Shown here piece after piece: positions 9,380 to 51,966 of a stretch of 64,000 nucleotides of DNA. Source of the stretch: Olsenella timonensis (GTDB taxonomy: Bacteria; Actinomycetota; Coriobacteriia; Coriobacteriales; Atopobiaceae); NCBI RefSeq assembly GCF_900119915.1, contig NZ_LT635455.1:434001-498000 (forward strand). The letters run 5' to 3'. Position numbers and translations under genes: made by a program. The notes under the pieces were generated by a model. The model saw only the letters and a program-made list of their open reading frames with translations, did not search any database and was not told the DNA's origin. Positions within the stretch are counted from its first letter, which is position 1. The number at the start of each line of letters is the position of its first letter.

Positions 9380-9494
9380 GGTCGCCTTGCTTGCAGGGCC
9401 CCTCTCTGCGGGGATGCCGTAAAATGGCCAGAGAAGAACGAGGCCACCCGAGGCACGCCGTCCGCGTGGCGCGGTGACCTGGACAGGAGGACCC

Positions 9495-33998: not shown

Positions 33999-34316
33999 AT
34001 GCTGGAGCTGAGGTTCACCGCCAAGTTCAAGAAGGACTACAAGCGCGTGAAGCGGCAAGGCAAAGACCTCGCGAAGCTCGAGCGGACCCTTGAGGCGCTT
34101 ATGCGCGGGGAAGCTCTTCCAGATGCGATGCGCGACCATTCGCTCGGTGGAACATACCGCGGTCACCGCGAGTGTTACATCAAGCCTGGCTGGCTGCTCA
34201 TCTATCGTGTTGACGAGGAGGGGTTCGTTCTTGTTGCTACGAGGGTGGGAAGTCATAGCGAGTTGTTGGGGGCAGCTCTTTTGTCGAACATGAATCTGAG
34301 AGGATATGCATGTTGA
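33999..34316 (+). CDS. YafQ/RelE family mRNA interferase toxin
   Basis: Toxin of 105 residues that cuts mRNA on the ribosome. Family blocks are visible: RFTAKFKKDYKRVKRQGKDL, RDHSLGGTYRGHRECYIKPGW (the H-x-L-x-G and R-E-C-H/Y-I-x-x-x-W core) and LIYRVDEEGFVLVATRVGSHSELLG. YafQ proteins normally end soon after S-H-S-[ED]-L-F; here about 15 further residues (up to RGYAC) run on, and the stop overlaps the start of the STAND ATPase gene by 7 bases. The tail may be without function, or may keep the next gene coupled. Confidence 0.9.
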   Translation: MLELRFTAKFKKDYKRVKRQGKDLAKLERTLEALMRGEALPDAMRDHSLGGTYRGHRECYIKPGWLLIYRVDEEGFVLVATRVGSHSELLGAALLSNMNLRGYAC

Positions 34317-37300
34317 GACAGCACGCAATTGAGAACGAGCTGAAGCAGCTCGAAGGTGGAGCGTTTCAAAAACTTGCTGAGGCATATGTTTACCGCAAGC
34401 TTCACCTTCAGTCCTTGACCACTCTTGGATCGCAGCCTGGAACAAATAAAGTGACAGAGGGCATTCCCGATGCACACAGTCTTACAGACTGCGATGCGAT
34501 TCTCATTGCATTTACTACTGCTCAGCACGGGTATTTCAGAAAACTCGAGAAAGACATTAAAGACTGTCTTTCGTCTCAAGTTCCTAATGGCTACACCAAG
34601 AGAATCATTTGCTGTCATCTTGCGTGGAGGCTATCTCCAGAACAGGAAGGCAAACTTCGTGCGCCTGATTCTCGAATCGAATTGATTGGCCCAAAGACAA
34701 TCGCATCGGATTTGGCGAACAAGTATCACGATCTTGCCGCGGAATTTCTGCATGTCCGTATGGGAGTCGACGCAATTATTACTCCTGATGAATGGATAAG
34801 GCGAGAAGAGAGGAAAGGCTATGCGACCCCACAATCGGGAGAGTTGCGTCACAGAGCCAAAGAACTGGAAGAACTCAGAGATGCTCTTGAACGAGTCCAA
34901 ATTGTTGTAATTCACGGTCCTTCTGGATGTGGCAAAACGAGGTTAGCTCTTGAGCTTGTTAACCGCTATGCGCAAGACAAACGAGTTGCATCATATGTTT
35001 TATCGAAAGTGAGAGGGGCTGGTGTTGCGGAGGATGTAAACGAGTTCCTTTCAGAGGGTGATGCCGTTCTCTTGGTTGATGATGCGCAGCAATCGGACGG
35101 ACTCGACGAGCTTCTTGAGGTAGTTTTGAAGAACGAAGGTCTTCGAGTTGTTCTTACTGTGCGGGACTACGCACATAAGTCATTGCTGACCGCCCTACGT
35201 CGTTCAGTAAAAATCGAAGAATACTCTCTACAACCGCTGGATAATCAGGCTGTAGAAGAGTTGGTGAGAGACAATTTCGGAATTATCAACCACCACCTCC
35301 TTGAAAAGATTGGGAAGGTTGCTCGCGGAAACTTAAGGCTTGCGATAATGGCGGCATTGTGCGCGGAAAGGGATGGTTATTCTGGCATTGAGAGCGCTCA
35401 TGCTGTAATGGACCTCTTCTACAAGGGCCTTATTGATGAGCTCGGGCAAGACGACTTGATTTTGCTGTCATATCTGAGCGTATATGCTCCGTGTGACTTC
35501 AAAGAGGGGGATCCAGCTTATGAGGCCCTGGTGGCAGAGGGGATGTTGCCGTCGGAGATGGAACGTAGGGCGAGGAAGCTCCATGACCGTAATATTCTCG
35601 ATGTATTAGAGAGTCCTGAAAGAGTTGTTGCGGTTAAGTTCGAGCAGCTGAATCTCCAAGACTACTGCACCTATAAGGCCATTTTTGAAGAGCACGTCGT
35701 TGACTTGTATGAGTTTGTTTCAATGTTTGTCCTTCGTGATAGGCGGAGGGTCGTCAGGGTTCTTAATGTGCTCATCTCCATATTCGGCGACGACAAGACC
35801 ATTTCAAAAATCAAATTTGACTGCAAAAGAGTTTGGATGAACTCTGGCTCTTATCGTATTGCAGAGCGTCGTGAAATCATGGATGTGCTCCATCCCCTCA
35901 TACCGGATGACGCTTACTGTTTCGCGTGCAATGAGATTAGCGGGATGCCGTCTTCAAGCGTTCCGATATCAGAGCAAGGGGATTATGGAAGACAGGCGAC
36001 CGGTGAGATTCCAGTTAGCCTTGCCATTCTCTGTGAGCTGATGGACTCAAAGCACTATCCCGATGCGATCTCTGTCCTACTTGATGGCATACAGAAAGGA
36101 TGCTTCAAAATAGGGGACTACAAGTCTGTCATTGAGGAATCTCTGGTAATAACTATGCACTCTGTAGAGACTGGGTTTCTGCGCGAGCGTAGGTTCCTTG
36201 ATGAGCTGAGACAGAGGATGAACAAAGAGTCTGACTCTCGAAACTTGCAGTTTTTTGGCCTAAAGCTTTGCGAACAATACCTGGCCTTTTCTCACGTATC
36301 GACCGAAGCTGAGGAAGGGGGAGCGATTCGTTCTCTCACCATCAAAATGCCGGAAACGGAAGACGCTCTTGAGCTTAGAAGCAGCGCAATAGCATTCCTC
36401 TGCAGCTTGCTAGAGCTGTCAAACTATCAATCCGATGCGGCTCGGGTTCTTTGCCCGCATGTCGGGATAGTCGAAAAAGAACCGGTCAAGGAGGATGTTC
36501 GTTTCTTTCTAGAGAGTGGTATTCGGTCGTTTGTATCGCATATTCCGGCAGGATTTGTGCCTACTTCTAGGGAGGAGCTGGAGCTCGTTTACCATTGCTC
36601 TCTTGCTTGCGAGGCGCTTTCGCTGCAAGAGCAAGAGACGATGTCGAGCCTTCTGCCCTTGGCGTATTCCGACCGCGAGAAGTTGATGGAAAGCTTTAAT
36701 CCAGATGAGGGGGAAATACTCTCTGCGGTCGAAGGCTGGAGCTCCCAGAGATATGAGGATGTACTCAAGATTAACCAAGAGATGTGGGGGAAAGGAGAGC
36801 TAGACCCATACAGTGCTGGCTCTCTTGTTGACAGGGTTTTTATTGCTCTGCTTTCAGAGGATAGGCCTGACATTAGCCTCGACGGTTTTTTCGATTATTA
36901 CTGCAATCTCCATGATGCTGACCAGCAGATATCTCTTGGCTCTAGGATTATTGAGAGGCTCGGTCAGAGAATCGGATGGCGTCTACTTCTCGATACGGCG
37001 ATTTCTCATGGGCTTGCGACTCTAGCCGTCGCTGGAATTGAGATGGTGCCGGCTGATATCGCGTCAAATAACGACATGGATTTCCTTCTTTCCGTGGCGG
37101 AATCGGGGCAGGTTTTGATGCGTATCGATGAAGTTATGGGCATCGAATCGAAGACTTCCGGCTTTGCAAGCAGATACTGTAGGACAGTCAAGCCATCTTT
37201 ACTCAAGAAACCCGGGCACGCACATCTATTCTTTTTGCCTCTCTCAAATTCAAGAGAGCCGATGGCCGATCTTGACGTGTGCTTCGGGGCTGACTTGAAC

Positions 37301-37978
37301 GATTTGCTTGAGATATACGCAGACAATATCCATGATCGTCATTTCGACTACACAGGCTTAGTGTTTAGATACCTCGATGAGCGAGGTGCGGACCCAATTG
37401 AGAGGCTATTTCAGTTGCTGGTGGCCGCTGATAATTATGCCTCGCGCCGAGCTATTATTTGTCGACTGGGGCAGGCATCAAGACTGAGTAATCCTATGAA
37501 AAGGATGCAAGAGGTTGTTCGCCATCTTGCAGATGTTGTTAAATACCCAATGATAGATGTCTACGCTTTGCTTGTTCATAATGAATATCTTGCCGCTGGA
37601 TTTGATGTTCCAACTTTAATATTTGAAGATCTGATGCTCAGGTTGGAAAAGGGCGACATTCCAAATTACTACAGTATGGTTCTTTCAGACATTCCGTTCA
37701 AGAATCGGGTGGAACCATATGTTGCGCTGCTGAGCAGCGATTTAGCTGGCAAACTATTTGACGTCCTTCCATTTGGTTCGTCCTCTTATGCTGGTTCGAT
37801 TGAGCAAGGATTTGCGCCAGCTATTCGTAGGGAGATTGAGATTATTGAAACGATTTCTAATATGCTTCCACATGATGGTCGCTTCAAGTATCACAGGGAA
37901 GTATTGAGCGATATTATCCGCAGAAAAGAGCGGGAAATCGATGAAGAGAGGTGGCGGAGCTTCCACGAGACGCTTTAA
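34310..37978 (+). CDS. STAND-type NTPase with N-terminal nuclease-like domain (Avs-like)
   Basis: Protein of 1222 residues, probably an intracellular phage sensor-effector. Residues 1-150 look like a degenerate PD-(D/E)XK fold: GAFQKLAEAYVYRKL, KVTEGIPDAHSLTDCDAIL and AFTTAQHGYFRKLEKDI. In related proteins the strand before T-T usually has a Glu; here it is Ala, so nuclease activity is doubtful. The NTPase core has Walker A GPSGCGKTRL near 203-212, Walker B VLLVDDAQ near 253 and VVLTVRDYAH near 283 (sensor). The rest, about 750 residues, is helical-repeat-like and likely the ligand-binding part. It carries AT-rich codons unlike the transporters upstream. The ribosome site is AGAGGAT within the toxin gene. 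Confidence 0.8.
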   Translation: MLRQHAIENELKQLEGGAFQKLAEAYVYRKLHLQSLTTLGSQPGTNKVTEGIPDAHSLTDCDAILIAFTTAQHGYFRKLEKDIKDCLSSQVPNGYTKRIICCHLAWRLSPEQEGKLRAPDSRIELIGPKTIASDLANKYHDLAAEFLHVRMGVDAIITPDEWIRREERKGYATPQSGELRHRAKELEELRDALERVQIVVIHGPSGCGKTRLALELVNRYAQDKRVASYVLSKVRGAGVAEDVNEFLSEGDAVLLVDDAQQSDGLDELLEVVLKNEGLRVVLTVRDYAHKSLLTALRRSVKIEEYSLQPLDNQAVEELVRDNFGIINHHLLEKIGKVARGNLRLAIMAALCAERDGYSGIESAHAVMDLFYKGLIDELGQDDLILLSYLSVYAPCDFKEGDPAYEALVAEGMLPSEMERRARKLHDRNILDVLESPERVVAVKFEQLNLQDYCTYKAIFEEHVVDLYEFVSMFVLRDRRRVVRVLNVLISIFGDDKTISKIKFDCKRVWMNSGSYRIAERREIMDVLHPLIPDDAYCFACNEISGMPSSSVPISEQGDYGRQATGEIPVSLAILCELMDSKHYPDAISVLLDGIQKGCFKIGDYKSVIEESLVITMHSVETGFLRERRFLDELRQRMNKESDSRNLQFFGLKLCEQYLAFSHVSTEAEEGGAIRSLTIKMPETEDALELRSSAIAFLCSLLELSNYQSDAARVLCPHVGIVEKEPVKEDVRFFLESGIRSFVSHIPAGFVPTSREELELVYHCSLACEALSLQEQETMSSLLPLAYSDREKLMESFNPDEGEILSAVEGWSSQRYEDVLKINQEMWGKGELDPYSAGSLVDRVFIALLSEDRPDISLDGFFDYYCNLHDADQQISLGSRIIERLGQRIGWRLLLDTAISHGLATLAVAGIEMVPADIASNNDMDFLLSVAESGQVLMRIDEVMGIESKTSGFASRYCRTVKPSLLKKPGHAHLFFLPLSNSREPMADLDVCFGADLNDLLEIYADNIHDRHFDYTGLVFRYLDERGADPIERLFQLLVAADNYASRRAIICRLGQASRLSNPMKRMQEVVRHLADVVKYPMIDVYALLVHNEYLAAGFDVPTLIFEDLMLRLEKGDIPNYYSMVLSDIPFKNRVEPYVALLSSDLAGKLFDVLPFGSSSYAGSIEQGFAPAIRREIEIIETISNMLPHDGRFKYHREVLSDIIRRKEREIDEERWRSFHETL

Positions 37979-38047: not shown

Positions 38048-38836
38048 TCACGCGCACCGCTCGAAGACGCGGTCGTTGTGGTAGTGGATGAAGTCGAGGC
38101 TCGGCCAAGTTGACTCGTTGCTGTCCGGCAGGGCGATCTTCCTCCCGTCGAAGGCGTAGAGCCACTGGTCGTTCGTGGGCGTGTGCGGCACGCGCGAGGA
38201 GATCACGACGCGGTAGCGGTCGTCGAGCGTGATGAGGCCGCGGTCGAAGGCGCGGTCGTGCAGGGCGTTCAGCAAAAGGCCGTTCGAAGACATGAGACGC
38301 TCGCTCGGCGTGGCCGCCGCCCACGGCTTGATGTGGCTCGCCGTGAGCAGGGCGGGAATGTCGATGCCCGTGAGACAGCAGGTGCCGCCGTAGTTGGCAA
38401 GAAGCACGCTGCGGAAGTAGCCCTGGTTGACGCGCGTGCGAACCTGCTCAACACGTTCCAGCCCGAGCTGCCGAGGCCGACTGGGGCGAGAAGAACCCGA
38501 GGCCTCGATCTCTCCGTCGTAGGAGATTCGAATCCCGATCTGCTCGAGCTCCCACATCGCTTCGGACATGGTTGCGTCCGGATCGGCGAGGTACTCACTT
38601 ATGACTTGTCGGTCCATTCCTGCGGCATTGATGAAGCCGAGGCCAGTCCGGTTTGGGTCGCACGCCTTGAGGTTTGCAATCTTGAAGCAGACAGCAGACT
38701 CCGTGCGCCCGATCTCTCCGGCAAGAAGCCGGATCTCGGTATCGCTGTCGTCCCAGTTCTTCCGGGGAAGGGGAGGGCACAGGTAGAAGGCGAGCGCCAT
38801 GAGGGTCTCTTGACGTGACCAGTTCCTGCGGGACAT
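38048..38836 (-). CDS. HNH endonuclease domain protein
   Basis: Nuclease-like protein of 262 residues. The N-terminal half is a small helical domain (RRNWSRQETLMALAFYLC... DPNRTGLGF). The C-terminal HNH fold is clear: GGTCCLTGIDIPALLTASHIKPW (His of H-x-I-x-P), NGLLLNALHDRAFDRGLIT (Asn and second His). This is the HNH type seen with McrA-like and orphan restriction enzymes. The start codon taken is the ATG at 38834-38836, with the ribosome site AGGAGGAGCG just ahead; an ATG 18 bases upstream lacks one. It lies 95 bases downstream of the 38932 gene on the same strand, perhaps in one transcript. Confidence 0.87.
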   Translation of the reverse strand: MSRRNWSRQETLMALAFYLCPPLPRKNWDDSDTEIRLLAGEIGRTESAVCFKIANLKACDPNRTGLGFINAAGMDRQVISEYLADPDATMSEAMWELEQIGIRISYDGEIEASGSSRPSRPRQLGLERVEQVRTRVNQGYFRSVLLANYGGTCCLTGIDIPALLTASHIKPWAAATPSERLMSSNGLLLNALHDRAFDRGLITLDDRYRVVISSRVPHTPTNDQWLYAFDGRKIALPDSNESTWPSLDFIHYHNDRVFERCA

Positions 38837-38931
38837 CGCTCCTCCTACCTTCATCTGGGCTCAGAATGCCAGGAAGACTCGATTGCTCATCGAAGCCTTC
38901 TGTTCTGCGGGGCCGCTTGAAGCGTAGCCCT

Positions 38932-40107: not shown

Positions 40108-40220
40108 GATTTACCTCTCAACTCACTTGATGTTTACGGGATTTTGCTTGGGTCTCCACACGAACCGTTATGAGAGAATTATGTCAGCAATCTGAGCTCG
40201 CGATATTGAGGGGACAAAAG

Positions 40221-41183
40221 ATGTCTGCCAAGCTTCCGCTTAGTGAGATTGAGCAGGTACGACTTCGAGATATATGGCCTTACGAGGCGAACGACTTCAC
40301 TACGTGGCTTGCCGTTCCAAAAAACCTTTCCAAGCTCGGAAATGCGTGTGGTATAGAGTTGGAGCCCTACGAAACCGAGAGCGCGGTGGGCACCTTCTCG
40401 GTGGATATCTTTGCTCGAGAACTTGATACCGAGCGACCGGTTGTCATCGAGAATCAATTGGAGGACACCAATCACGACCATCTTGGCAAGCTCATAACGT
40501 ACGCGGCTGGCAAGGACGCTGGCATCATCATCTGGGTTGTTAAGAGGGCCCGCGGTCCGCATCGCAAGGCAATCGAGTGGCTAAACAATCACACAGATGG
40601 GGGCTGTGCGTTCTTCCTGGTTGAAGTCGAGGCCTGGCGAATCGACCAATCTAATCCAGCAGTTGTGTTCAAGGTCGTTGAGTCTCCAAATGATTGGGCG
40701 CGAGATGAGAAGGGCAAGACAGGCCTCACTCAAACTGAACGTGCGGCGTTCGAGTATTGGCAGACGTACTATGAGCTGGCCAGCTCAGATGCCTACGGTG
40801 ACTCCGACGAGCTGTTGCCAGATGCAAGCAAGAAGCTCTGGATTAAACTTAACGTCGGATCTGCGAAGTACTTCCTTGCCGTTCAGATTTACTCTCAATA
40901 TAAGAGGGTGAGCGTTGAGGTTCGTATGACGGACGACGCGTTCTCTTCCTTCATCAACGCGCACATTGACGAACTCATGTTGGCGTTGGGCCAAGACTAT
41001 GATGAATATGAGATGCGGAAAGAGAACAAGGGGATTGTCTTTCATAAGACCGACTGCGACGTGGTGAATGGGCCTCGCGAGAAGTGGCCAGAGTATATCG
41101 GCTGGCAGCGAGATAAGCTTGGCAAACTATATGCTGTGGTGAGCAAGCTTGAGGCTGAATTCGAACAGGGGAGCACGTCGTGA
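40221..41183 (+). CDS. PD-(D/E)XK-like protein with DUF4268 domain
   Basis: Protein of 320 residues. The N-terminal half carries a nuclease-like core: FSVDIFAREL (Asp near residue 62) and PVVIENQLEDTNHDHLGKL (E-N-Q near 76-78), then AGIIIWVVKRARGPHRKAIEWL. The E-x-Q form occurs in some active and some inactive PD-(D/E)XK folds. The C-terminal half (about 190-320) fits DUF4268: KLWIKLNVGSAKYFLAVQI and FHKTDCDVVNGPREKWPEYIGW. Start ATG 40221 follows GAGGGGAC; the longer frame has no ribosome site. It overlaps the GIY-YIG gene (GTGA). Its place at the head of the type I R-M run suggests a restriction accessory. Confidence 0.78.
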   Translation: MSAKLPLSEIEQVRLRDIWPYEANDFTTWLAVPKNLSKLGNACGIELEPYETESAVGTFSVDIFARELDTERPVVIENQLEDTNHDHLGKLITYAAGKDAGIIIWVVKRARGPHRKAIEWLNNHTDGGCAFFLVEVEAWRIDQSNPAVVFKVVESPNDWARDEKGKTGLTQTERAAFEYWQTYYELASSDAYGDSDELLPDASKKLWIKLNVGSAKYFLAVQIYSQYKRVSVEVRMTDDAFSSFINAHIDELMLALGQDYDEYEMRKENKGIVFHKTDCDVVNGPREKWPEYIGWQRDKLGKLYAVVSKLEAEFEQGSTS

Positions 41184-41836
41184 GCAAAGGCGTCATCTAC
41201 ATCCTCACCAACCCTAGCTTCCCGCAGTACGTGAAGATTGGTTACGCGAGCAACCTGCAGCGTAGGCTCCATGAGCTCAACCGCTCCGGGGCGCTCCCGT
41301 ACGCGTTTCGGACGTATGCGACCTACGATGTCGACCATAAGCTGACGGATAAGGCGCTCCACGAGCTCATCGACCAGCTGAATCCCGACCTTCGCACCAT
41401 CGAGACCTTCAATGGGAAGACCCGTACCAAGGAGTTCTTCGAGATGTCTCCCGAGGATGCCTATGCCATCCTTGAGGCCATCGCCCGCATCTCGGGAACG
41501 GAGGGCAGGCTCCATCGCGTCACTCCCACTGGCGAGCAGATTGAAGAGGAGCGCGAGGCGGAGGAGGCCCGCCATGATGCAGAGACTGGAAGGCGAACTC
41601 GCTTCCGCTTCTCCATGGTTGGCATCAAGCCTGGCGAGAAAGTGGTTTTCGCAAACGACCCATCAAAGGTGGCTATCGTTGTTGACGACACGCGCGTCGA
41701 GTATGAAGGCGTAACTACTTCGCTCTCTGCGCTGGCCAAGGAGTTCCTGGGCCGCAATAGCGGGGTGCAGGGGCCGCTTCACTTTACTTACGAAGGGGAG
41801 CGTCTCTCTGAGAGAAGACTTCGCATGGAGGATTAG
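41180..41836 (+). CDS. GIY-YIG nuclease with C-terminal RAMA/DUF4357-like domain
   Basis: Protein of 218 residues. The N-terminal GIY-YIG domain starts VIYILTNPSFPQYVKIGYAS (residues 5-24) followed by NLQRRLHELNRSG, as in the T5orf172/Mei-type group, with Arg (RRLHEL) and Glu (KEFFEM) in expected places. A charged helix (about 120-140) links to a small domain: GEKVVFANDPSKVAIVVDD, GVTTSLSALAKEFLG and GPLHFTYEGERLSERR. The latter resembles the RAMA/DUF4357 fold that goes with adenine methylases. The GTG start is fused to the stop of the preceding gene. It may cut or sense foreign DNA beside HsdM. Confidence 0.82.
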   Translation: MSKGVIYILTNPSFPQYVKIGYASNLQRRLHELNRSGALPYAFRTYATYDVDHKLTDKALHELIDQLNPDLRTIETFNGKTRTKEFFEMSPEDAYAILEAIARISGTEGRLHRVTPTGEQIEEEREAEEARHDAETGRRTRFRFSMVGIKPGEKVVFANDPSKVAIVVDDTRVEYEGVTTSLSALAKEFLGRNSGVQGPLHFTYEGERLSERRLRMED

Positions 41837-41908
41837 AAAGCGTCAAGCGAATAACCGAGATTTGTTGTGTTCACAGCGGCGATTCGCTTTCTAGCGAGGA
41901 GATCATGC

Positions 41909-43480
41909 ATGGCAGAGTTTGATACAACAAGAGAGCAGCAGCGCTCGGCGTTGCATAGGGCCATCTGGGGCATTGCCGACGACGTCCGCGGCGCTGTAGA
42001 CGGCTGGGACTTCAAGATGTACGTCCTGGGTTTCCTCTTCTACCGCTTCATCTCCGAAGATCTTGCAGCCTACATTGACGAGGGCGAGCATGAGGCGGGA
42101 GACCTCGCGTTCTCTTACGCCGCCATGTCCGACGTTGACGCCGAGGCCGCGCGGGAGGATATCGTCGAAGAGCGCGGCTACTTCATGCTGCCCTCTGAGC
42201 TCTTCGTGAATGTCTCCGCGCGCTGCGACAAGGATTCCGATCTCAACGAAACCGTCAAGGCCGTGTTTGACCACATTGAGGGTTCGAGCGTCGGCACGCC
42301 CTCTGAGAGGAGTTTCCGAGGCCTTTTCGACGACATCGACCTCAACTCCAGCAAGCTTGGAAATGGGGTTGCCGAGCGCAACGGCCGTCTTGTCAAGATT
42401 ATCAAGGGCATAGCTGGACTCGACTTTGGCAACGTCGCCGACGCCAAGATTGACCTGTTCGGCGATGCCTACGAGTACCTCATGAATATGTACGCCTCGA
42501 GTGCTGGCAAGTCGGGTGGCGAGTTCTTTACGCCACAGGAGGTATCCGAGCTCCTGGCAAAGATCGTCATCGGTGACAAAGCGAGCGTCAACAAGGTCTA
42601 CGATCCTGCCTGCGGGTCGGGGTCGCTGCTGCTAAAGTTCGCCAAGCTGCTGGGACAGGAGAACGTCCGCCGTGGGTTTTATGGCCAGGAGATCAACATC
42701 ACGACATATAACCTGGCTCGCATTAACATGTTCCTGCACAAGGTGAACTTCGACAAGTTCGACATCGCTCTTGGGGACACTCTGCTCGAGCCCAAGCATT
42801 GGGATGATGAGCCGTTTGATGCCATCGTCTCTAATCCGCCGTACTCAGTGAAGTGGGCGGGCGACGCCGACCCAACGCTTATCAACGATCCACGCTTCGC
42901 GCCAGCGGGCGTGCTCGCGCCGAAGTCCAAGGCTGACCTTGCGTTCACGATGCACATGCTCAGTTGGCTCTCCGCTGACGGTAAGGCTGCCATCGTCGAG
43001 TTTCCCGGCGTATTGTATCGTGGCGGCGCCGAGCAGAAGATTCGCAAGTATCTCGTAGACAACAACTTTGTTGAGGCGGTCATCCAGTTGCCGGCGAATC
43101 TCTTCTTCGGCGTGACGATTGCCACCTGCGTCATCGTGCTCTCCAAGGGCAAGGCCGATGATAAGATTCTTTTCGTCGACGCGTCCGAGGAGTTCAGCCA
43201 CGTCGGCAACAAGAACAAGCTGATGCCCGAGAATATCCAGAAGATTTACGACGCCGTACACGACCGCAGTGAGGAAGAGCACTTCTCAAAGCTTGTCGGC
43301 ATCGACGAGGTCGGCTCCGAGAACGACTACAACCTGTCGGTTGGCACCTACGTCGAGAAGCTCGACACGCGTGAGAGGGTCGACATCGTCGAGCTCAACG
43401 AGCGCATCAAGGGCATCGTCGCGCGCGAGCAGGAGCTGCGCGAGCAGATCGACGCCATCGTTGCGGACCTGGAGGCGTGA
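41909..43480 (+). CDS. hsdM: Type I restriction-modification methyltransferase subunit HsdM
   Basis: N6-adenine DNA methyltransferase of 523 residues. The N-terminal helical domain (about 1-150) includes KMYVLGFLFYRFISEDL. The SAM site is VYDPACGSGSLLLKFAKL near 230-247, and the catalytic motif IV is IVSNPPYSVKW near 307-317. GEFFTPQEVSELL and FFGVTIATCVIVLSKGK are typical of HsdM. The C-terminal end forms a coiled coil that binds HsdS. The start ATG 41909 follows GAGGAGATC. The next gene begins 4 bases after the stop. Confidence 0.96.
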   Translation: MAEFDTTREQQRSALHRAIWGIADDVRGAVDGWDFKMYVLGFLFYRFISEDLAAYIDEGEHEAGDLAFSYAAMSDVDAEAAREDIVEERGYFMLPSELFVNVSARCDKDSDLNETVKAVFDHIEGSSVGTPSERSFRGLFDDIDLNSSKLGNGVAERNGRLVKIIKGIAGLDFGNVADAKIDLFGDAYEYLMNMYASSAGKSGGEFFTPQEVSELLAKIVIGDKASVNKVYDPACGSGSLLLKFAKLLGQENVRRGFYGQEINITTYNLARINMFLHKVNFDKFDIALGDTLLEPKHWDDEPFDAIVSNPPYSVKWAGDADPTLINDPRFAPAGVLAPKSKADLAFTMHMLSWLSADGKAAIVEFPGVLYRGGAEQKIRKYLVDNNFVEAVIQLPANLFFGVTIATCVIVLSKGKADDKILFVDASEEFSHVGNKNKLMPENIQKIYDAVHDRSEEEHFSKLVGIDEVGSENDYNLSVGTYVEKLDTRERVDIVELNERIKGIVAREQELREQIDAIVADLEA

Positions 43481-43484
43481 GACT

Positions 43485-44297
43485 GTGGGACATAAGGAAG
43501 ATCAGGAAATTCGTGAGCAGGAAGTCATGAAACGTGTTCATGAATTCCTGAAGCGCCAAGACCTCAACTACTTTTACGGCTTCTCCGCTGAAGACGTAGA
43601 AAGACTGGCGGAGGCGTTTTCTTCGCTGGTGCAAAACAACGACACTACGTTTCCCGACTTCTATAGTTCAAATTCTTGTGTTGAGCTGTTCAGCGTCTCC
43701 TCCTCGATTTCTGAGCGCAAGGGTTCAGCACAGATGAAGCAGGATGGCAAGCTGAGGGTGAAGATTGCACAGGATGATGAGAAGGCTGTTAGCTCGTGCG
43801 ATTTCAAGAGGCGGACGTATTTATGCGCTCATCCGGAGCACACGTACGAAGCTTTGACGAATAACCTGCGAGAGCAGGTGGCCAAGCACGTCGGAAGCAA
43901 ACGTGCATGCAGTAAGCAGTTCGACACGTCTGTATTTGTAATTGATCTTAATGAACTTGATTTAAGCTGCATGCTCCGCCCTCTCGAGCTCGTGGTTTTA
44001 GATGGCTTGCGAATTGGTGATTTGGAGTCTACCTATGCGGACGGAAAGCCGTATGGGCTTTATCGTCTGTCGCGTGATCGGGAGAATCTTGAGTGGTTGG
44101 CGCAGTATGTGAACGACGTAAACTACGTCGTCTTCTGTGGTCTAAACGTCATTGAAGCGATTAACTTGCATCATGTGCGGGAGATTGTAGCGTTTCTGCC
44201 ATGGAAGCTGGTCACTGCGGCAAATAACTCACTTACTTTTGTATCTTCGGCCCCTCTTGTCAATGAGGGATTGGCGGGTTCGCATGGGCAGGATTGA
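43485..44297 (+). CDS. Unknown protein inserted between hsdM and hsdS
   Basis: Protein of 270 residues, not assigned to a family. DTTFPDFYSSNSCVELFSV followed by SSSISERKGSAQ resembles a pattern of PD-(D/E)XK-like proteins (P-D-F, then E-x-F-x-V-[ST]-S and K-G-S), but this is an impression only. The rest is mixed alpha/beta, with FVIDLNELDLSCMLRPLELVV and YVVFCGLNVIEAIN. The start is probably the GTG at 43485 with GGAGG ahead; ATG 43527 is the alternative. It overlaps the hsdS start by 14 bases and shows AT-richer codons than hsdM. It may be an accessory restriction subunit. Confidence 0.65.
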   Translation: MGHKEDQEIREQEVMKRVHEFLKRQDLNYFYGFSAEDVERLAEAFSSLVQNNDTTFPDFYSSNSCVELFSVSSSISERKGSAQMKQDGKLRVKIAQDDEKAVSSCDFKRRTYLCAHPEHTYEALTNNLREQVAKHVGSKRACSKQFDTSVFVIDLNELDLSCMLRPLELVVLDGLRIGDLESTYADGKPYGLYRLSRDRENLEWLAQYVNDVNYVVFCGLNVIEAINLHHVREIVAFLPWKLVTAANNSLTFVSSAPLVNEGLAGSHGQD

Positions 44298-45477
44298 CGA
44301 GATGATTCAGCGGCTCTGCCCGGATGGCGTGGAGTACAAGAAGCTGGGTCAGGTTGCTGAAATTGGTACTGGCTCGAGCAACACACAGGATCAGGTCGAG
44401 AATGGCGACTACCCGTTCTATGTTCGCTCGTCTGAGGTCAAGCGGTCGGATACCTATGAGTTTGATGAGACAGCGATTATTACCGCCGGGGATGGTGAAG
44501 TTGGAAAAGTATTTCACTTTGCTGAAGGGAAGTATGCATTGCACCAGCGTGCATATCGTGTCCATGTAACTTCTTCTGAGCTCATGCCTCGCTTTTGCTA
44601 CTGGTATATGGTTGGTCGTTTTCAAGGGTACGTAGAGATGAAGGCCTGCTCTGCCACCGTCATGTCACTTCGTAAGCCGATGTTCCTTGAGTTTCCAATA
44701 CCCGTCCCGCCCCTCGACATCCAGCATGAGGTCGTGCGGGTTCTAGACTCCTTCGCGGAGCTGGAGGCGGAGCTGAAGGCGGAGTTGGAGGCACGCAAGG
44801 CGCAGTACGCCCACTACCGCGACAAGCTGCTGTCCCGCGAAAGCCTCGAGGCGATGGCAGGTGCGCCGGTAAACTTGGCGCCATTGGGCGAGCTTGGCAC
44901 CTTTTCGCGCGGGCGACGTTTCACGAAAGCTGACTATGTCGATGAGGGCATTCCGAGCATTCATTACGCTGAGATTTATACACGGTTTGGAACATCTACT
45001 AATAAGGCGTTCTCCTTTGTACGTCCGGACAAGGCAAATTCCCTTCGATATGCTCAATATGGTGATTTGGTAATTGCATGTACTGGAGAGGACGCTAAGG
45101 ACATCGCTAAGGCTGTCGTTTGGCTTGGTGAAGAGCCGGTTGCCGTTCATGATGACTGCTCGATTTACCGTCATTCTCTGAACCCGAAATACGTGTCGTA
45201 TTTCTTCCAGACCAGTAGCTTTTCCAGGCTGAAAGAGATGTATTCGACGGAAGCGAAGATGACAAGGATATCTGCGAAGCGCCTCGCCGCGATTGAGATT
45301 CCCGTTCCACCGCCATCGGTTCAGCAGAAGGTCGTTGACATCTTAGATCGCTTTGAATCGCTCACGACCTCTCTTACCGACGGCCTGTCTGCGGAGATCG
45401 AGGCGCGACGCCAGCAGTACGAGTACTACCGCGACAGGCTCCTCGACTTCCCGCGCAAGGAGGAGGCGACGTCATGA
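44284..45477 (+). CDS. hsdS: Type I restriction-modification specificity subunit HsdS
   Basis: DNA recognition subunit of 397 residues with two target-recognition domains. It starts MGRIDEMIQRLCPDGVEYKKLG, the usual N-terminus. The first domain runs to about 150 and ends in EFPIPVPPLDIQHEVVRVLDSF; the second begins near 195 (VNLAPLGELGTFSRG) and ends with the matching EIPVPPPSVQQKVVDILDRFE. Each is followed by a spacer helix with repeated Y-x-Y-Y-R-D-[KR]-L-L (AHYRDKLLS, EYYRDRLLD). The two domains differ in composition, as expected if they were exchanged. The stop overlaps hsdR (ATGA). Confidence 0.95.
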   Translation: MGRIDEMIQRLCPDGVEYKKLGQVAEIGTGSSNTQDQVENGDYPFYVRSSEVKRSDTYEFDETAIITAGDGEVGKVFHFAEGKYALHQRAYRVHVTSSELMPRFCYWYMVGRFQGYVEMKACSATVMSLRKPMFLEFPIPVPPLDIQHEVVRVLDSFAELEAELKAELEARKAQYAHYRDKLLSRESLEAMAGAPVNLAPLGELGTFSRGRRFTKADYVDEGIPSIHYAEIYTRFGTSTNKAFSFVRPDKANSLRYAQYGDLVIACTGEDAKDIAKAVVWLGEEPVAVHDDCSIYRHSLNPKYVSYFFQTSSFSRLKEMYSTEAKMTRISAKRLAAIEIPVPPPSVQQKVVDILDRFESLTTSLTDGLSAEIEARRQQYEYYRDRLLDFPRKEEATS

Positions 45478-48400
45478 CCGTCGATGACCCCATCGCCAAG
45501 GACACTGCTCCCGGCACGCCGACCTACGGCCTCATCCTGCAGGGCCCCGAGTCGACGGTTTGCTCCGAGGCACCCGCCGCGCCCGCGGCCGAGGGCGCCT
45601 ACCAGTCGGAGGCCGACCTCGAGGCCGGCCTCATCGACATCCTCACGCACCAGGGCTACGACCGGTTCTACGTCGAAACCGAGGCCGAGCTCGTCGCCAA
45701 CCTGCGCGCCAAGCTCGAGGAGCTGAACGGTATCGAGTTCACCGACGCCGAGTGGAAACGGTTCAGCTCGGAGAACGTCACGAACCCGGCGCTCACGGTC
45801 ATAGACAAGACCCGGCGCATCCAGGACGACCCGGTCGTCGCCTTCCAGCGCGACGACGGCTCGTACAAGAACGTCTACCTCCTGGACCGCGACCACATCC
45901 ACAGGAACCGCCTCCAGGTGATGAACCAGTACGAGGCGGACGAAGGCACGCACAAGAACCGCTACGACGTGACTGTGCTCGTGAACGGCCTTCCGCTCGT
46001 GCACATAGAGCTCAAGCGGCGCGGGGTGCGCCTGCGCGAGGCGTTCAACCAGATCGAGCGCTACCAGCGCGAGAGCTTCTGGTCGGGCTCGGGGCTCTTC
46101 GAGTTCGTCCAGGTCTTCGTAATCTCCAACGGGACGAGCACGAAGTACTACGGCAACACCGTGCGCTGGGACCACACGCACCCGAAGGCGGGGCGGAGGG
46201 GCGCCTCCTCGTTCGAGTTCACGAGCTGGTGGACCGACTCGAGGAACCGCCGCATCGCCGACCTCGAGGGCTTCGCGCGCACCTTCCTCTCGAAGGGGAC
46301 GCTGCTCATGGTCCTCACGCACTACTGCGTGCTCACCGCCGAGGACGAGCCTAAGCTGCTCGTCATGCGTCCGTACCAGATCTGCGCCACCGAGCGGATA
46401 CTCAACCGCATCCTCGTCTCGGAGCTTGACAAGCGCCGCCTCGGCACGGTCGACGCCGGCGGCTACGTCTGGCACACCACGGGCTCGGGCAAGACGCTCA
46501 CCTCGTTCAAGTGCGCCCAGCTCGCGAGCCGCATGGAGGGCGTCGACAAGGTCATGTTCGTCGTGGACCGCAAGGATCTCGACTATCAGACCATGAAAGA
46601 GTACAACCGCTTCCAGAGAGACGCAGTTAACGGCTCAGTTGATACATGGGCGCTTGATATGAATTTGCGTGACGATACTAAGCGTATCTGCGTCACAACT
46701 ATTCAAAAGCTCAGTGTACTGATTGAGAGAAACGCGAGGCATCCAATCTATTTCCAGCACGTCGTGTTGATCTTCGACGAGTGTCATCGCTCTCAGTTTG
46801 GCAAGATGCACCAGGAGATCGTCAAGAAGTTCAAGTACTACCACCTGTTCGGCTTCACGGGCACGCCTATCTTCGCGAAGAACGCCAACATGAGCGGAGA
46901 CCCGACCCTGCGCACCACCGAGCAGGCGTTCGGCGACAGGCTTCACTCCTACACCATCGTGAACGCCATCGACGACGGCAACGTGCTGCCGTTCCGCGTG
47001 AGCTATCTGCAGACGATGAGGGCAAAGGATGGGCTCAGGGACGACCAGGTTCAGGCCATCGACACCGAGGGTGCCCTTACGTCCTTCTCGCGCATCCTGG
47101 GCAACGCCGAGTACATCCTCGACCACTACGACCAGCACACGATGCGCCAAGCGTCTGGAACTGGTTTCACCTCTCTTCTCGCGACGGAGTCGATTCCTGC
47201 CGCCAGGCGCTACTATGCCGCGCTCAAGCAGCTTCAGGAGACTAGGGCTGAGAGGGGAGAGCTCAAGCTTCCCCTCAAGATTGCGATGATTTACAGCTAT
47301 GCGCCAAACGGGGACGATCTGGCGACGGGCATTATTGCGGACGAGTCCATGGACGCCGGCCAGCTCGACGCAAGCGACCGTGAGGCGCTCGAGGTGGCCA
47401 TCGAGGACTACAACGCCATGTTTGGCACGTCCTTCTCTACGGACGGAGCCAAGTTCCAGAACTACTACAAAGATGTCTCGCAGCGCCTCAAGTCTCGCGA
47501 GCTCGACATGCTCGTTGTCGTGGACATGTTCCTGACGGGTTTTGACTCCAAGACGCTGAACACCCTTTGGGTGGACAAGAATCTGCGTATGCACGGCCTT
47601 ATCCAGGCGTTCTCGAGGACGAATCGCATCCTCGATTCCGTTAAGGCCTTTGGAAACGTTGTCTGCTTCCGTGACCTTTCGGACGAGGTGGACGACGCTC
47701 TTGAACTCTTCGGGGACGAGAGTGCCGGCGGTATCGTCATTCTTAAGTCGTATCAGGAGTACCTGTCTGATTACATGATGCTTCTGGAGGAGATTAAGAA
47801 GAAGTATCTCTCCGAGGACGGTACACTCTGCATCTTTGGGGAGGCTGCCGAGAAGGGCTTTGTCGGCGCATTCGGGGCGTTGTTGAGGTTGCGCAACGTG
47901 CTTTCCGTGTTTGACGATTTCCCCAAGGACGACGTGCTCAGTCCACGGCTGCTGCAGGACATGCAGAGCATGTACCTTGACATTGCCGACAAGCTTAAGG
48001 CCAAGGCGAAGGCCGAGAAGGTTGACATCGTTGATGACCTTGTCTTTGAGATTGAGCTCATCAAGCAAGTTGAGGTCAACATCGACTACATTCTCGAGCT
48101 TGTGATGCAGGCGCGAGGCGGCAACGGTGAAGACAAGGTTGCATACGACAAGATTTCGCGTGCTATTGCGATCTCGCCGCAGCTGCGTGACAAGGCCGAG
48201 CTCATCATGGAGTTTGTCGAGCGCATGGGCGTTACTTCCGACGGCGTGAGCGTGCTCGATGAGGGCGGAGAGGCCGCGCGTCGCTCCAAGGTGGATGCTG
48301 AGTGGACCTCTTACGTGCGCGAGCGCGTGGAACGTGAGCTCAACGCGATTATCACTGAGGAGAAGCTCAAGCCTGAGGAGACGCGACGTGTTGTCTCATA

Positions 48401-48593
48401 TGCCTTTGATGCGGGCGGGGTGCCAGAGACGGGGACACTCGTTCAGTCCTGCCTGCCGAAGGTATCGCGATTTGCAAAGGGCAACGCCTACGGAGAGCAG
48501 CGTCATAGGGTGATTTCAAGGCTGCGGGAGTTTTACGAGAAGTTCAGGACGCTTATCCGGAGGTATCCGGTGCAGCTTGAAGAACAGTCATGA
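45474..48593 (+). CDS. hsdR: Type I restriction endonuclease subunit HsdR
   Basis: Motor and nuclease subunit of 1039 residues. The N-terminal PD-(D/E)XK site is RYDVTVLVNGLPLVHIELKRRG near 163-185 (Asp, and E-x-K). Helicase motifs follow: VWHTTGSGKTLTSFK near 331 (Walker A), LIFDECHRSQFG near 430 (D-E-x-H), FGFTGTPIF (motif III) and DMFLTGFDSKTLN and GLIQAFSRTNR (motifs V-VI). The C-terminus is helical. The first ~1.1 kb uses strongly GC-rich codons; after about 46600 the codon use is plainly less GC-rich, so the gene may be a mosaic. It ends 14 bases before the RT start. Confidence 0.96.
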   Translation: MTVDDPIAKDTAPGTPTYGLILQGPESTVCSEAPAAPAAEGAYQSEADLEAGLIDILTHQGYDRFYVETEAELVANLRAKLEELNGIEFTDAEWKRFSSENVTNPALTVIDKTRRIQDDPVVAFQRDDGSYKNVYLLDRDHIHRNRLQVMNQYEADEGTHKNRYDVTVLVNGLPLVHIELKRRGVRLREAFNQIERYQRESFWSGSGLFEFVQVFVISNGTSTKYYGNTVRWDHTHPKAGRRGASSFEFTSWWTDSRNRRIADLEGFARTFLSKGTLLMVLTHYCVLTAEDEPKLLVMRPYQICATERILNRILVSELDKRRLGTVDAGGYVWHTTGSGKTLTSFKCAQLASRMEGVDKVMFVVDRKDLDYQTMKEYNRFQRDAVNGSVDTWALDMNLRDDTKRICVTTIQKLSVLIERNARHPIYFQHVVLIFDECHRSQFGKMHQEIVKKFKYYHLFGFTGTPIFAKNANMSGDPTLRTTEQAFGDRLHSYTIVNAIDDGNVLPFRVSYLQTMRAKDGLRDDQVQAIDTEGALTSFSRILGNAEYILDHYDQHTMRQASGTGFTSLLATESIPAARRYYAALKQLQETRAERGELKLPLKIAMIYSYAPNGDDLATGIIADESMDAGQLDASDREALEVAIEDYNAMFGTSFSTDGAKFQNYYKDVSQRLKSRELDMLVVVDMFLTGFDSKTLNTLWVDKNLRMHGLIQAFSRTNRILDSVKAFGNVVCFRDLSDEVDDALELFGDESAGGIVILKSYQEYLSDYMMLLEEIKKKYLSEDGTLCIFGEAAEKGFVGAFGALLRLRNVLSVFDDFPKDDVLSPRLLQDMQSMYLDIADKLKAKAKAEKVDIVDDLVFEIELIKQVEVNIDYILELVMQARGGNGEDKVAYDKISRAIAISPQLRDKAELIMEFVERMGVTSDGVSVLDEGGEAARRSKVDAEWTSYVRERVERELNAIITEEKLKPEETRRVVSYAFDAGGVPETGTLVQSCLPKVSRFAKGNAYGEQRHRVISRLREFYEKFRTLIRRYPVQLEEQS

Positions 48594-48606
48594 CAGGGAC
48601 AAAACA

Positions 48607-50130
48607 ATGACGAAGTCAGTTAGTGAGCAGCTCGAGTGTCACCGTTCTTACGCAGAATATCTCGATGAGATTTCTGAAGATGAGCTCTTGTATGGACTAC
48701 TAGGTTGCGGAATGTTTAGCGATAAACTCCCACCCATGTTTTCCTCAGAAGCGCTCTTTGGCTATGTGGAGAACTTTTCTCTACCGACAAAGCCAGAGAG
48801 GCACAGGTATGTTTCCTTCTGCACTCCAAAAAACGATGGGGGTGTTAGGGCTATGGGGATCCCGCACCCCATATCCTATGCCCAGCTTTGCTTAACGCTT
48901 GAGGACAGCTGGGCAAAAATAAAGCAGAGAATGAAAGACGGCTGTATTAATCAAAAATACAAGGTGAGTCGAATTCATCTCCGCAAACAAAGCATTTCCG
49001 GAAGACTATTCAAAATGAACTATCACGTGTGGCAGCTTGACGGAGACCCAACTCCTCTGATTCAGATTAACGCCACTTATCGAGTAACGACAGATATCTC
49101 GATGTGCTTCCCCAGTATATATAGTCATGCAGTCCCGTGGGCTTTGGTCGGGAAAGAAGCAGCTAAAGTAAAGAGAGGCAATCAGCTCTGGTTTAATAAG
49201 ATTGATCGCGACCTTAGAAATTGTACAGATGGCGAAACCCATGGAATACTTATCGGCCCCGATTCTTCAAACCTAATTGCTGAAATTATACTTACGGAAA
49301 TTGATAAAGAGCTGATTGCAAAGGGATATAGATACGTTAGAAATATAGATGATTATACCTGCTATACAGAATCGTACGATGGCGCCCGGAGATTCCTTGT
49401 AGAGCTGGATGAGCAGCTAATCAAATACGGTTTACTTAGAAATCAGAAGAAGACTTTAATCGAGCCTCTCCCGGTCCCGTTAAGCGAGGATTGGGTTACG
49501 GAGCTAAGGCGCCTATCGAATGAACTACCAGAAAAAGTCGATAGGGGCGCTGTAGACAGTTCGCTCGATTACGCTACAGCTCTTATGCAGGTACATAAGA
49601 ATACATCCATTATGATTTTCCTGCTTCGTGTTCTTGCTAAACGAGATTTTACGGCTCCGGCTGAAGAACTGTTGGTGAGCAGAATGCTCCAGCTAGTAAG
49701 ATCCTATCCTTATTTAGTTATCACGTTCGAAGAGCTTGTCCTCAACAGGTTTAATGTGGCCACTGAAGATATCAACCTCTTATCAAACTACTTATATAAG
49801 CTTAGTTTTGATACGCACGATTGGTTTGGAGCGTACTACGCATTTTACTACTCACTTAAATACAAGTTTAATATTAATGGCGTGCTCGTCGATGACGTAA
49901 TATCTTCCGACGATTGTCTACTCAAGACGCTAGAATACCGATATGCTCTAGAGCGGAATAATAAGAGTGCAATTCAGAAACTTGAGTCGGATGCAATGCA
50001 GCTTCTGAAAAACGGAGACGCAGATGATAACTGGCTGTTTGTGTATGAAGCACTATCCGCTCAACAGCTCGGGAACAATTCTCTCGGAGATTTGAAATCG
50101 AAAGGCGTTGCCTTTATCTCGTTCGCATAG
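48607..50130 (+). CDS. Reverse transcriptase of the defence-associated (Abi/UG) type
   Basis: RNA-directed DNA polymerase of 507 residues. RT motifs: the Asp of TYRVTTDISMCFPSIYSHAV near residue 163 (motif A); GILIGPDSSNLIAEIILTEI near 212 (motif B, with G-P and S); and YVRNIDDYTCYTE near 244-256 with the D-D pair (motif C, where F/Y-x-D-D is replaced by N-I-D-D). The N-terminal FCTPKNDGGVRAMGIPHPISYAQLC is the fingers region. The C-terminal 220 residues look helical, as in AbiA/AbiK/UG proteins that make untemplated or short DNA. The ATG at 48607 follows CAGGGAC; a TTG in frame upstream overlaps hsdR. Codons are AT-rich. It is very close to hsdR, so co-expression is likely. Confidence 0.88.
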   Translation: MTKSVSEQLECHRSYAEYLDEISEDELLYGLLGCGMFSDKLPPMFSSEALFGYVENFSLPTKPERHRYVSFCTPKNDGGVRAMGIPHPISYAQLCLTLEDSWAKIKQRMKDGCINQKYKVSRIHLRKQSISGRLFKMNYHVWQLDGDPTPLIQINATYRVTTDISMCFPSIYSHAVPWALVGKEAAKVKRGNQLWFNKIDRDLRNCTDGETHGILIGPDSSNLIAEIILTEIDKELIAKGYRYVRNIDDYTCYTESYDGARRFLVELDEQLIKYGLLRNQKKTLIEPLPVPLSEDWVTELRRLSNELPEKVDRGAVDSSLDYATALMQVHKNTSIMIFLLRVLAKRDFTAPAEELLVSRMLQLVRSYPYLVITFEELVLNRFNVATEDINLLSNYLYKLSFDTHDWFGAYYAFYYSLKYKFNINGVLVDDVISSDDCLLKTLEYRYALERNNKSAIQKLESDAMQLLKNGDADDNWLFVYEALSAQQLGNNSLGDLKSKGVAFISFA

Positions 50131-50550: not shown

Positions 50551-51966
50551 GTCGCGAAAAGTGGTGTAGGGGGCCTCCGCCCGTGATCTCAATGAGCCGA
50601 ACCTACGCCGCCATCGCCCCCTCGTCAATCCCCGAGAGCGCCGCGATTCTCGAGCGAGCCCTCGTGACCTGCCCCTCGGTCGGCTCCGGGACGGGCAAGA
50701 GCTCGCGCCCCCACAGGCCCTCGATCGCGGACGGCTCCATGTACCTGCGGCCGGACCAGTCCTCGGACGCCTCGCAGCAGACCGCACCCACCAGCCGGAC
50801 CAGCGCCTCCTCCGACGGGAAGCTCTGGACCACTCGCGCGCGGCGCTTGATCTCGCGGTTGCAGCGCTCCTGCACGTTGTTCGTCCTGATGCGGCGGCGG
50901 TGGGCCTCGGGGAAGTCGAGGTATGCGAGGGCGTCCGCCTCGGCCCCCTCCATGATCCTCCCGGCGTCAGGCGACAGGGACGAGACGACGTCGCAGGCCG
51001 CGCGGTAGAGCGCCCTCACCCTCCCGGGGTCGTCCTCGTCGAACACCGCGTGGAGGACGCGCCCGGCGGCGGCCCTCTTCGCGCGCGTCGGGCACGCGTC
51101 GATCACGTCCCGCTCGAGGTGGACGACGCAGCGCTGCCAGGCCGCGCCCGGGAAGAGCTCCCTCGCCGCCCGGGCGATGCCGCCGTGGGCGTCGGAGGTC
51201 ACGCACTGCACGCCGGAGAGCCCGCGCTCGCGGAGGCCGCGCGGGAAGCCCTTCCAGCTCGCGTAGGACTCCGCGTCGACGCACGCCAGGCCGACGGCCC
51301 TGCGCACGCCGTCCTCGCCGACGGCGATGGCCGTGACCACCGCGGCCGTGGCGCCGCGGCCGCCCCTGCGGCAGGGCACGTAGGTCGCGTCGACCCACAG
51401 GTACGGGAAGCGCATCGCGGGGAGCTGCCGGGAGCGCAGCTCCGCGACCTCGGCGTCGAGGGCCGAGCAGATGCGCGAGACGGCGTCCTTGGACAGCCGG
51501 TCGGCGCCCATGCGCTCGAGGACCTTCCCCACCTTCCTGGTCGAGACGCCGAGCGCGCACGTCTCGGCCACCGCGCAGATCACGGCGCGGTCCACCCGGC
51601 TCCACCGCTCGACGAGGCCGTCCGGGAAGTAGGTGCCCTGGCGCAGCTTCGGTATCCTGAGCGCGATGGTCCCGACCTGCGTCTCGAGACGCCTCTCTCG
51701 GAACCCGCTCCTCGTCGTGCCGGTCGCCTCGCAGGCGGCGTCGGCCTGGGCGGCCATCATCTCGTTGACGCCCGCCTCGAGCAGGGCCCTGGCGAGGCCC
51801 GTGAGCCCCTCGCCGCCCTCCTCGGCGAGCCCGAGCGTCGCGAACGCGTCTTGCTGTACAGTTTCCATTGCGGTCTCCGTTCCCTCGAATCCTTCTCTTG
51901 GTCGAAAGAGATTCTAGGACGGAGGCCGTTCCTAATTCAGGTCTCCCTTACACCACATTTCGCGAC
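50551..51966. mobile_element. Complete IS256-family insertion sequence
   Basis: Element of 1416 bases bounded by near-perfect 22-bp inverted repeats: left GTCGCGAAAAGTGGTGTAGGGG (first 20 bases given by positions 50551-50570) and right at 51945-51966; two positions differ. It contains one intact transposase on the minus strand. Flanking bases (GCCGGTAGT left, GTGATCGCA right) show no direct target repeat, so the ends now seen probably come from recombination or deletion after insertion. Confidence 0.85.
50603..51868 (-). CDS. IS256-family transposase
   Basis: DDE transposase of 421 residues, normal for the family. Catalytic blocks: LWVDATYVPCR (first Asp, near 175), CVTSDAHGGIARAARELFPG (second Asp, with S-D-A-H-x-G) and NNVQERCNREIKRRARVV (third acid, Glu). 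HLERDVIDACP also fits. The start at 51866-51868 is normal. The frame is intact, so the element could still move. Confidence 0.93.
   Translation of the reverse strand: METVQQDAFATLGLAEEGGEGLTGLARALLEAGVNEMMAAQADAACEATGTTRSGFRERRLETQVGTIALRIPKLRQGTYFPDGLVERWSRVDRAVICAVAETCALGVSTRKVGKVLERMGADRLSKDAVSRICSALDAEVAELRSRQLPAMRFPYLWVDATYVPCRRGGRGATAAVVTAIAVGEDGVRRAVGLACVDAESYASWKGFPRGLRERGLSGVQCVTSDAHGGIARAARELFPGAAWQRCVVHLERDVIDACPTRAKRAAAGRVLHAVFDEDDPGRVRALYRAACDVVSSLSPDAGRIMEGAEADALAYLDFPEAHRRRIRTNNVQERCNREIKRRARVVQSFPSEEALVRLVGAVCCEASEDWSGRRYMEPSAIEGLWGRELLPVPEPTEGQVTRARSRIAALSGIDEGAMAA

Follow-up and report, generated by a model that had tools for sequence, protein, structure and literature searches.

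A recurrent candidate effector gene between hsdM and hsdS of an EcoR124-type restriction operon in Olsenella timonensis

Type I restriction-modification (R-M) operons are a classic hiding site for backup immunity, as with PrrC, and a locus of Olsenella timonensis raises the question of which gene in or beside such an operon should be suspected of this role. The locus lies in a window of 64,000 nucleotides (positions 434001-498000 of a one-contig, 2.18-Mb genome), in which seven genes, read from the sequence and the list of open reading frames, follow one another on the plus strand between 40221 and 50130: a DUF4268 gene, a GIY-YIG-type gene, hsdM, an unnamed gene that we call X, hsdS, hsdR and a reverse transcriptase (RT) gene. 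A preliminary description had placed this run correctly, all seven genes being present and six of them assigned in the family searches, and had seen in the RT a possible sensor or backup of restriction. Our analysis suggests that X, rather than the RT, is the part worth following, given its recurrent slot, its rapid divergence and its testable function. We tentatively favour, at somewhat short of even probability, an EcoR124-type operon with a recurrent, fast-evolving and possibly nuclease-type effector X, beside which the RT, of the DRT4 class, is an independent neighbour.

Recurrence, divergence and predicted fold of X

No meaningful match to Pfam, NCBIfam or PADLOC was obtained for any of 26 members of the X family (best value for a single member, 0.0058), nor was there one among PDB sequences or, for the window X, in PHROGs, and no description of X was found among the matches listed from open-licence literature. 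Single-protein and first-alignment scans of viral contigs also returned nothing. A broken relative lies on an Enterococcus lactis plasmid (L006; retrieved loci carry L numbers throughout), approximately 0.4 kb behind hsdM-hsdS-hsdR, and from this relative and the window X we built the degenerate motif F-P-D-F-x7-E-x-F-x-V-[ST]-S. A scan of 84,980 species genomes and of viral contigs with this motif yielded 37 genome stretches and 3 viral stretches, of which 31 and 3, respectively, hold genuine relatives of X. The other six matches (L027, L028, L029, L036, L038 and L054) were judged by reading to be due to chance and were dropped. The viral stretches represent two different X, with L017 and L019 carrying the same one. 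X is apparently an undescribed recurrent family, often found at a fixed slot between hsdM and hsdS.

In 15 of the 31 genome relatives (L060-L065, L070, L075-L079, L081, L088 and L090), at most about 130 bases separate the start of X from an upstream hsdM or hsdM fragment. The next hsd gene is hsdS in 11 of these and an hsdR fragment in one, and the contig ends in the remaining three, so that the possibility raised in the preliminary description, that the same gene occupies the same slot elsewhere, is borne out. hsdR follows in 10 of the 11 hsdM-X-hsdS loci, the contig of the last one ending in hsdS. Several of these loci are incomplete or redundant: hsdM is fragmented in two (L062 and L063) and shortened in two more (L065 and L079), that of L081 runs into the contig end, the contigs of L063, L088 and L090 end inside X or about 0.3 kb behind it, and the operons of L077 and L078 are near-identical. 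The flanks of three further loci (L067, L072 and L085) hold hsd genes or a fragment of hsdM, and X lies outside the slot in L085, 1.2 kb behind hsdR. In L006 and L067, hsdM belongs to other type I lineages (approximately 40-43% identical to that of the window), and X is near but outside the slot. All these counts depend on phmmer searches (E <= 1e-4) for hsd genes, with the subunits of the window and of E. lactis as queries, which may have overlooked distant type I genes.

The junctions around X, computed for 9 of the 12 hsdM-X-hsdS loci including the window (L061, L070 and L078 being left out), are tight. The distance from hsdM to X is between -4 and +4 bases in eight of the nine, with -31 in L076, and X overlaps hsdS by 4 to 26 bases in eight of the nine, with a 353-base gap in L081. 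In L061 the gap between hsdM and X measures 126 bases from the aligned ATG, or 45 from the first possible start. Of three operons that lack X, two have a 4-base overlap of hsdM with hsdS, and in the third a few bases separate these genes. More than one kind of gene can fill the slot, because a type IC operon from the same order (L105, 8898-16194) has the order hsdM, DUF4145 gene, hsdS, PDC-S57 gene, hsdR.

The identities of X and HsdM correlate over 10 loci (rho 0.60, reached by 4 of 2000 permutations), a set that includes X cut by the contig end (L088 and L090) and X outside the slot (L085). Between L064 and L075, HsdM is 91% identical, HsdS 50% and X 37%, and between L061 and L077 the values are 88% for HsdM, 80% for HsdR and 43% for X. 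Judged from such comparisons, X diverges about as fast as HsdS and far faster than HsdM and HsdR. In a tree of 17 chosen HsdM rows, some of them on long branches, the slot gene has to be gained or lost three times, two of these events being forced by well supported branches. Since the HsdM of the window pairs with that of L105, which lacks X (96/96), X has been gained or lost more than once.

The AlphaFold models of the window X (predicted local distance difference test score, pLDDT, 82) and of a shorter member (pLDDT 92) are both mixed alpha/beta folds. In the alignment, the conserved columns outside the search motif are E7 (27/29), N45 (29/29), K74 (28/29), G75 (29/29), H137 (29/29) and S140 (29/29) in the numbering of L052, corresponding to E11, N51, K79, G80, H135 and S138 of the window X. 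An aspartate and a glutamate are each present in 29/29, both being required by the search motif, and there is no classical ExK. An X on a Jeotgalibaca plasmid, which was found by tblastn without the motif, keeps the D, E, K and H residues. Among the weak rows of the VIA structure comparison, where Z under 8 may be chance, the second model gave the N.BspD6I nickase (Z 3.9, 117 aligned, 4.2 A), Hef nuclease (Z 3.5, 103 aligned, 5.5 A), the arenavirus endonuclease, BsaWI and EcoRV, and the first model gave chains of DdmD, XPF/ERCC1, Hjc and McrBC. It is possible, on these very weak fold matches and the conserved residues, that X is a PD-(D/E)XK-like nuclease. Membership of the PrrC anticodon nucleases was considered and rejected because the ABC ATPase domain is absent, no such Pfam match being found in any of the 26 members at E <= 0.1.

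Several observations on X concern its mobility and its phage relatives. A serine recombinase gene overlaps X in L112 (7364-8681) and another lies about 2 kb from X in L067 (11862-12473), hinting at inversion or mobility of X. On two phage contigs (L020, 8377-9279; L021, 768-1670), X is found between tail-region genes and a 966-aa gene that looks by reading like a tape-measure gene, and in L021 what reads as the end of a group-II-intron-like RT lies just upstream of it.

The reverse transcriptase behind hsdR

The RT resembles DRT4/UG15 enzymes in its PADLOC scores (591 bits with the Drt4 model PDLC02178 and 288 bits with the next class, Drt6) and in its similarity to the solved UG15 chains in PDB (5e-42). 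It differs from them in its place directly behind hsdR and in its score with the NCBIfam Drt4 equivalog model NF041749, which is 343 bits against a cut-off of 450, so that by the NCBIfam standard it is a diverged DRT4 or a close relative. The stretches DISMCFPSIY and IDDY, which we take to be RT motifs, are intact. DRT4-like RTs are rare: 3 of 197 genomes of the order and 3 of 396 of the phylum have one, the genome of the window being counted in both and a fourth match in the phylum being in fact AbiP2, as do 3 of 344 from a Lachnospiraceae order. No relative of the RT turned up when viral contigs were scanned with the single protein.

Seven other RTs with Drt4 as the best class were retrieved (L011, L013, L014, L015, L094, L095 and L096). 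None of the seven has an HsdM, HsdS or HsdR match in its retrieved flanks, two of which are short (the L013 contig measures 6.5 kb in all, and the L095 flank on one side is 0.6 kb long). The plasmid sample consists of the best 2 of 195 matching records, the other 193 being approximately 25-31% identical where listed. An Azospirillum RT (L012) is of the DRT6 class and was excluded from the count. In L096 the RT (8889-10034) has a single in-frame stop within the profile match. An RT directly behind hsdS in another genome of the phylum, with further genes and then a partial hsdR behind it (L016, 5906-14963), turned out to be AbiP2 (9.7e-189) rather than DRT4 and was dropped as support for an association of the RT with R-M. 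Seen from the side of X, an RT match is present in one of the 10 other hsdM-X-hsdS-hsdR loci, namely L060; L077 ends 159 bases behind hsdR and thus offers no test. L060 is likewise the one locus among the 31 with an S57 match in the retrieved stretch.

L060 is a 12.9-kb contig of a metagenome-assembled genome labelled Atopobiaceae, whose binning may be wrong, and its gene order from S57 through hsdM, X, hsdS and hsdR to the RT is identical to that of the window. Similarity starts at the S57 start codon (41180), no DUF4268 gene being detected in L060, and ends at 50545. The two copies differ little over hsdM, X and the 3' part of S57, at 188 positions in hsdR and at 1 of 1521 positions in the RT, and a single base differs over 48173-50130, which covers the 3' end of hsdR and the RT. 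Their HsdS proteins are about 41-42% identical. By this pattern, L060 and the window are mosaic copies with a recent common history, between which pieces have been exchanged. Because that history is common to both, they do not count as two separate pieces of evidence for a joint RT/R-M system. Among the retrieved loci, L060 is also the only other place where a DRT4 RT adjoins hsdR, and no hsdR-DRT4 pair was found among the matches listed from open-licence literature. The dedicated partnership proposed in the preliminary description is therefore not supported by this small sample: none of the seven other DRT4 RTs has an hsd match in its retrieved flanks, and the search for an RT of this class beside hsdR led back to a near-copy. 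We conclude that the RT is probably a defence gene in its own right, of a kind already known.

Operon core, front genes and surrounding island

HsdM, HsdS and HsdR carry the N6-methyltransferase, specificity and HSDR_N/motor domains of a type IC system. The core is assigned to the EcoR124 (IC) type because the closest PDB entries to HsdR are the EcoR124 HsdR chains (approximately 1e-241 by phmmer), and on this family assignment the operon is predicted to methylate and restrict DNA. The two front genes match PADLOC candidate families over their full lengths, the DUF4268 protein matching PDC-S11 (1.5e-93, residues 5-310) and the T5orf172 protein matching PDC-S57 (1e-96, residues 1-217); the GIY-YIG model proper gave the latter a value of merely 0.14. 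In another locus of the same genus (L104, 6132-12221), a 95% identical PDC-S57 protein precedes an Eco57I-type methylase (partial match) and a ResIII helicase, which by these family matches is another link of the PDC-S57 candidate family with R-M.

Table 1. Coordinates of the genes of the run and of features around it (positions in the window)
Feature	Position	Strand	Remarks
nSTAND3-type NTPase	34310-37978	+	upstream of run
HNH restriction-like nuclease	38048-38854	-	upstream of run
DUF4268 protein, 320 aa	40221..41183	+	Pfam 1.9e-7; PADLOC PDC-S11; further ATG at 40170
T5orf172 / GIY-YIG-type protein, 218 aa	41180..41836	+	T5orf172 8.6e-14; PADLOC PDC-S57
hsdM, 523 aa, EcoR124/IC-like methyltransferase subunit	41909..43480	+	TIGR00497, 689 bits
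X, unnamed embedded gene, 270 aa, putative effector	43485..44297	+	candidate residues E11, D58, E67, K79, H135
hsdS, 397 aa from ATG 44284, two specificity stretches	44284..45477	+	Methylase_S 6.9e-32
hsdR, 1039 aa, EcoR124-like motor and nuclease subunit	45474..48593	+	HSDR_N, SWI2_SNF2, EcoR124_C
DRT4/UG15 reverse transcriptase, 507 aa	48607..50130	+	PADLOC Drt4 model PDLC02178, 6e-178
Mutator-type insertion element	50551..51966		22-bp inverted repeats at ends; Pfam Transposase_mut
Transposase of Mutator-type element	50603-51868	-	Pfam Transposase_mut
Avs2-like NTPase, N-terminal SMEK domain	55866-60128	+	PADLOC Avs2 2e-150; same island

The overlaps and tiny gaps of the preliminary description, the largest of about 70 bases before hsdM, were reproduced. 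The DUF4268 and GIY-YIG genes overlap by 4 bases (read directly), a 72-base gap, the widest of the run, separates the latter from hsdM, and X follows hsdM after 4 bases. X and hsdS overlap by 14 bases, counted from the hsdS ATG, hsdS and hsdR overlap by 4, and the RT starts 13 bases past hsdR. A consensus scan of the run found one promoter-like site, inside X, against a shuffle mean of 5.0, and none before hsdM or before the RT. Terminator-like sites numbered 11 against 9.0 expected, which is at chance level with no clear excess. These signals would fit a single transcript, without amounting to proof of it. The preliminary description had named two findings that would speak against its view of the RT, an RT class living mostly away from R-M genes and separate promoters before hsdM and the RT; the former is what our small sample indicates, and the latter has no support in the consensus scan.

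The run, an R-M operon carrying passenger defence genes, sits in a defence island to which the STAND NTPase, HNH nuclease and Avs2-like genes also belong (Table 1). A 150-base piece of the HNH nuclease gene recurs in L060. The insertion element, presumably of the IS256 type, starts at 50551, just past the end of the similarity to L060.

Readings of the locus and comparison with known systems

In the reading that we favour, X, packed between hsdM and hsdS, would be an effector retained next to the methyltransferase core, serving as a second line of defence against phages that escape or inhibit the R-M enzyme. It might be latent, held by the M2S complex and freed by anti-restriction, as described for PrrC, or it might be a second nuclease for DNA that the R-M enzyme cannot cut, as with TgvAB. 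The RT would be an independent module that landed beside hsdR and is expected to make random single-stranded DNA upon infection. A bolder form, which we regard as unlikely, makes X a fourth component of the type I system, namely a nuclease kept latent by the M2S core, with which it would be co-translated; its HsdS-like divergence would then stem from the variety of phage anti-restriction factors or DNA modifications to be recognised, and the DRT4 RT would have been added in this lineage as a layer triggered by failed restriction.

A number of results weigh against the favoured reading. X is rare, with relatives in none of 196 other genomes of the order, none of 395 others of the phylum, none of 200 further genomes of the Lachnospiraceae order and no phage record. 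Thirteen of the 31 genome relatives have no hsd match in the retrieved flank (L086 is counted here, an HsdS-like gene seen by reading 3.3 kb away having gone undetected by phmmer), nor do the phage-borne X in theirs, and the 10.1 kb shown of the Jeotgalibaca plasmid with X contain no annotated hsd gene. Solitary X such as L071 and L074 stand amid neighbours that read as ordinary metabolism; some others, which speaks for the favoured reading, adjoin genes of defence type (D12 methyltransferase, SIR2/HerA, DUF4365 and AGS_C). As to the fold, no Foldseek match at E <= 0.001 was obtained in PDB with either model or in BFVD with the second. The best VIA matches are PA4535, at Z 7.5 with both models, and an acetyl-CoA carboxylase domain, at Z 7.7 and 6.5, neither of them a nuclease, and the conservation of the F-P-D-F, E, F, V and S columns is forced by the search motif. 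The nuclease rows (Z 2.2 to 4.8) score level with unrelated folds, small GTPases among them, which slightly weakens the favoured reading and raises the alternative that X is a structural or regulatory type I subunit. Finally, the RT and the hsdM-X part of L060 are so nearly identical to those of the window that one common cassette including the RT may exist.

That alternative, in which X is no nuclease and modulates methylation, assembly or restriction alleviation, receives a low probability from us. The position of X between the two methyltransferase genes with tight junctions, its HsdS-like divergence and the lack of a clear nuclease fold in the model searches would all suit a subunit, but the 13 relatives without detected hsd genes and the conserved acidic and basic residues do not. 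Somewhat more doubtful is that X is a free-standing mobile endonuclease without a role in immunity, which spreads by cutting hsdM-hsdS junctions that lack X. Such an element would explain why the same junction is occupied in diverged operons, why X can be 37% identical where HsdM is 91% and why the tree requires repeated gain or loss, and the X genes in phage tail regions, like those adjoining or near serine recombinases, could be its traces. The layouts with X behind hsdR (L085 and the broken X of L006) argue against it, as do the tight junctions, which suggest co-translation, and the absence of any homing-endonuclease family match among the 26 members.

The least probable of the readings, in our judgement, is a single integrated cassette in which RT, X and R-M act jointly and the RT senses or backs up failed restriction. 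It can point to the gene order kept in two copies that are one base apart over the end of hsdR and the RT, to the 13-base spacing, to the AbiP2 RT directly behind hsdS in L016 and to the Abi-type RTs AbiA and AbiK, which are noted near R-M genes in PMC8934634. Against this stand the seven DRT4 RTs without hsd matches in their flanks, the one RT among ten X operons, one of them offering no test, and the close kinship of L060 to the window together with its uncertain binning. DRT4 is, moreover, described as acting alone, as a single-gene antiphage RT that makes random single-stranded DNA, which turns toxic once a phage protein protects it (PMC13213688).

If X is an effector, as we tentatively favour, "guilt by embedding" could be tested directly on a single small gene, with an enzyme that is well understood, and mere adjacency of an RT would be seen to be possibly a weaker clue than the recurrence of a slot. 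The preliminary description was right that the run is not a standard set; yet type I operons with defence genes inserted in them or next to them have been described before, PrrC, DarTG2 and TgvAB being precedents (PMC3874165, PMC12707154, PMC12255303 and PMC11411939). The nearest relation in terms of location is the DUF4145 gene of L105, also an extra gene in the hsdM/hsdS slot of a related type IC operon of the same order, although X belongs to a different protein family. DarTG2 is embedded in the type I locus of enteropathogenic Escherichia coli, in the RRDM island (PMC12255303), and X may likewise be a separate defence module among hsd genes; unlike this toxin-antitoxin pair, which lies between hsdS and hsdR, X has no meaningful Pfam family. 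TgvAB, embedded in a type I locus of Vibrio cholerae, acts against phages by itself (PMC11411939), and X shares with it the status of an uncharacterised gene within a type I operon, but TgvAB consists of two genes of the GmrSD kind whereas X is one gene without a family match. PrrC is embedded in a type IC operon, silenced by the enzyme and freed when a phage peptide inhibits that enzyme (PMC3874165, PMC12707154 and PMC2610378). X resembles the EcoprrI/PrrC arrangement as one extra gene among type IC hsd genes and hence as a candidate guardian, and differs from it in having 270 aa, no ABC ATPase family in Pfam and a place between hsdM and hsdS. By analogy with these systems, X would most likely be an embedded effector, acting either as a released guardian or as an independent nuclease.

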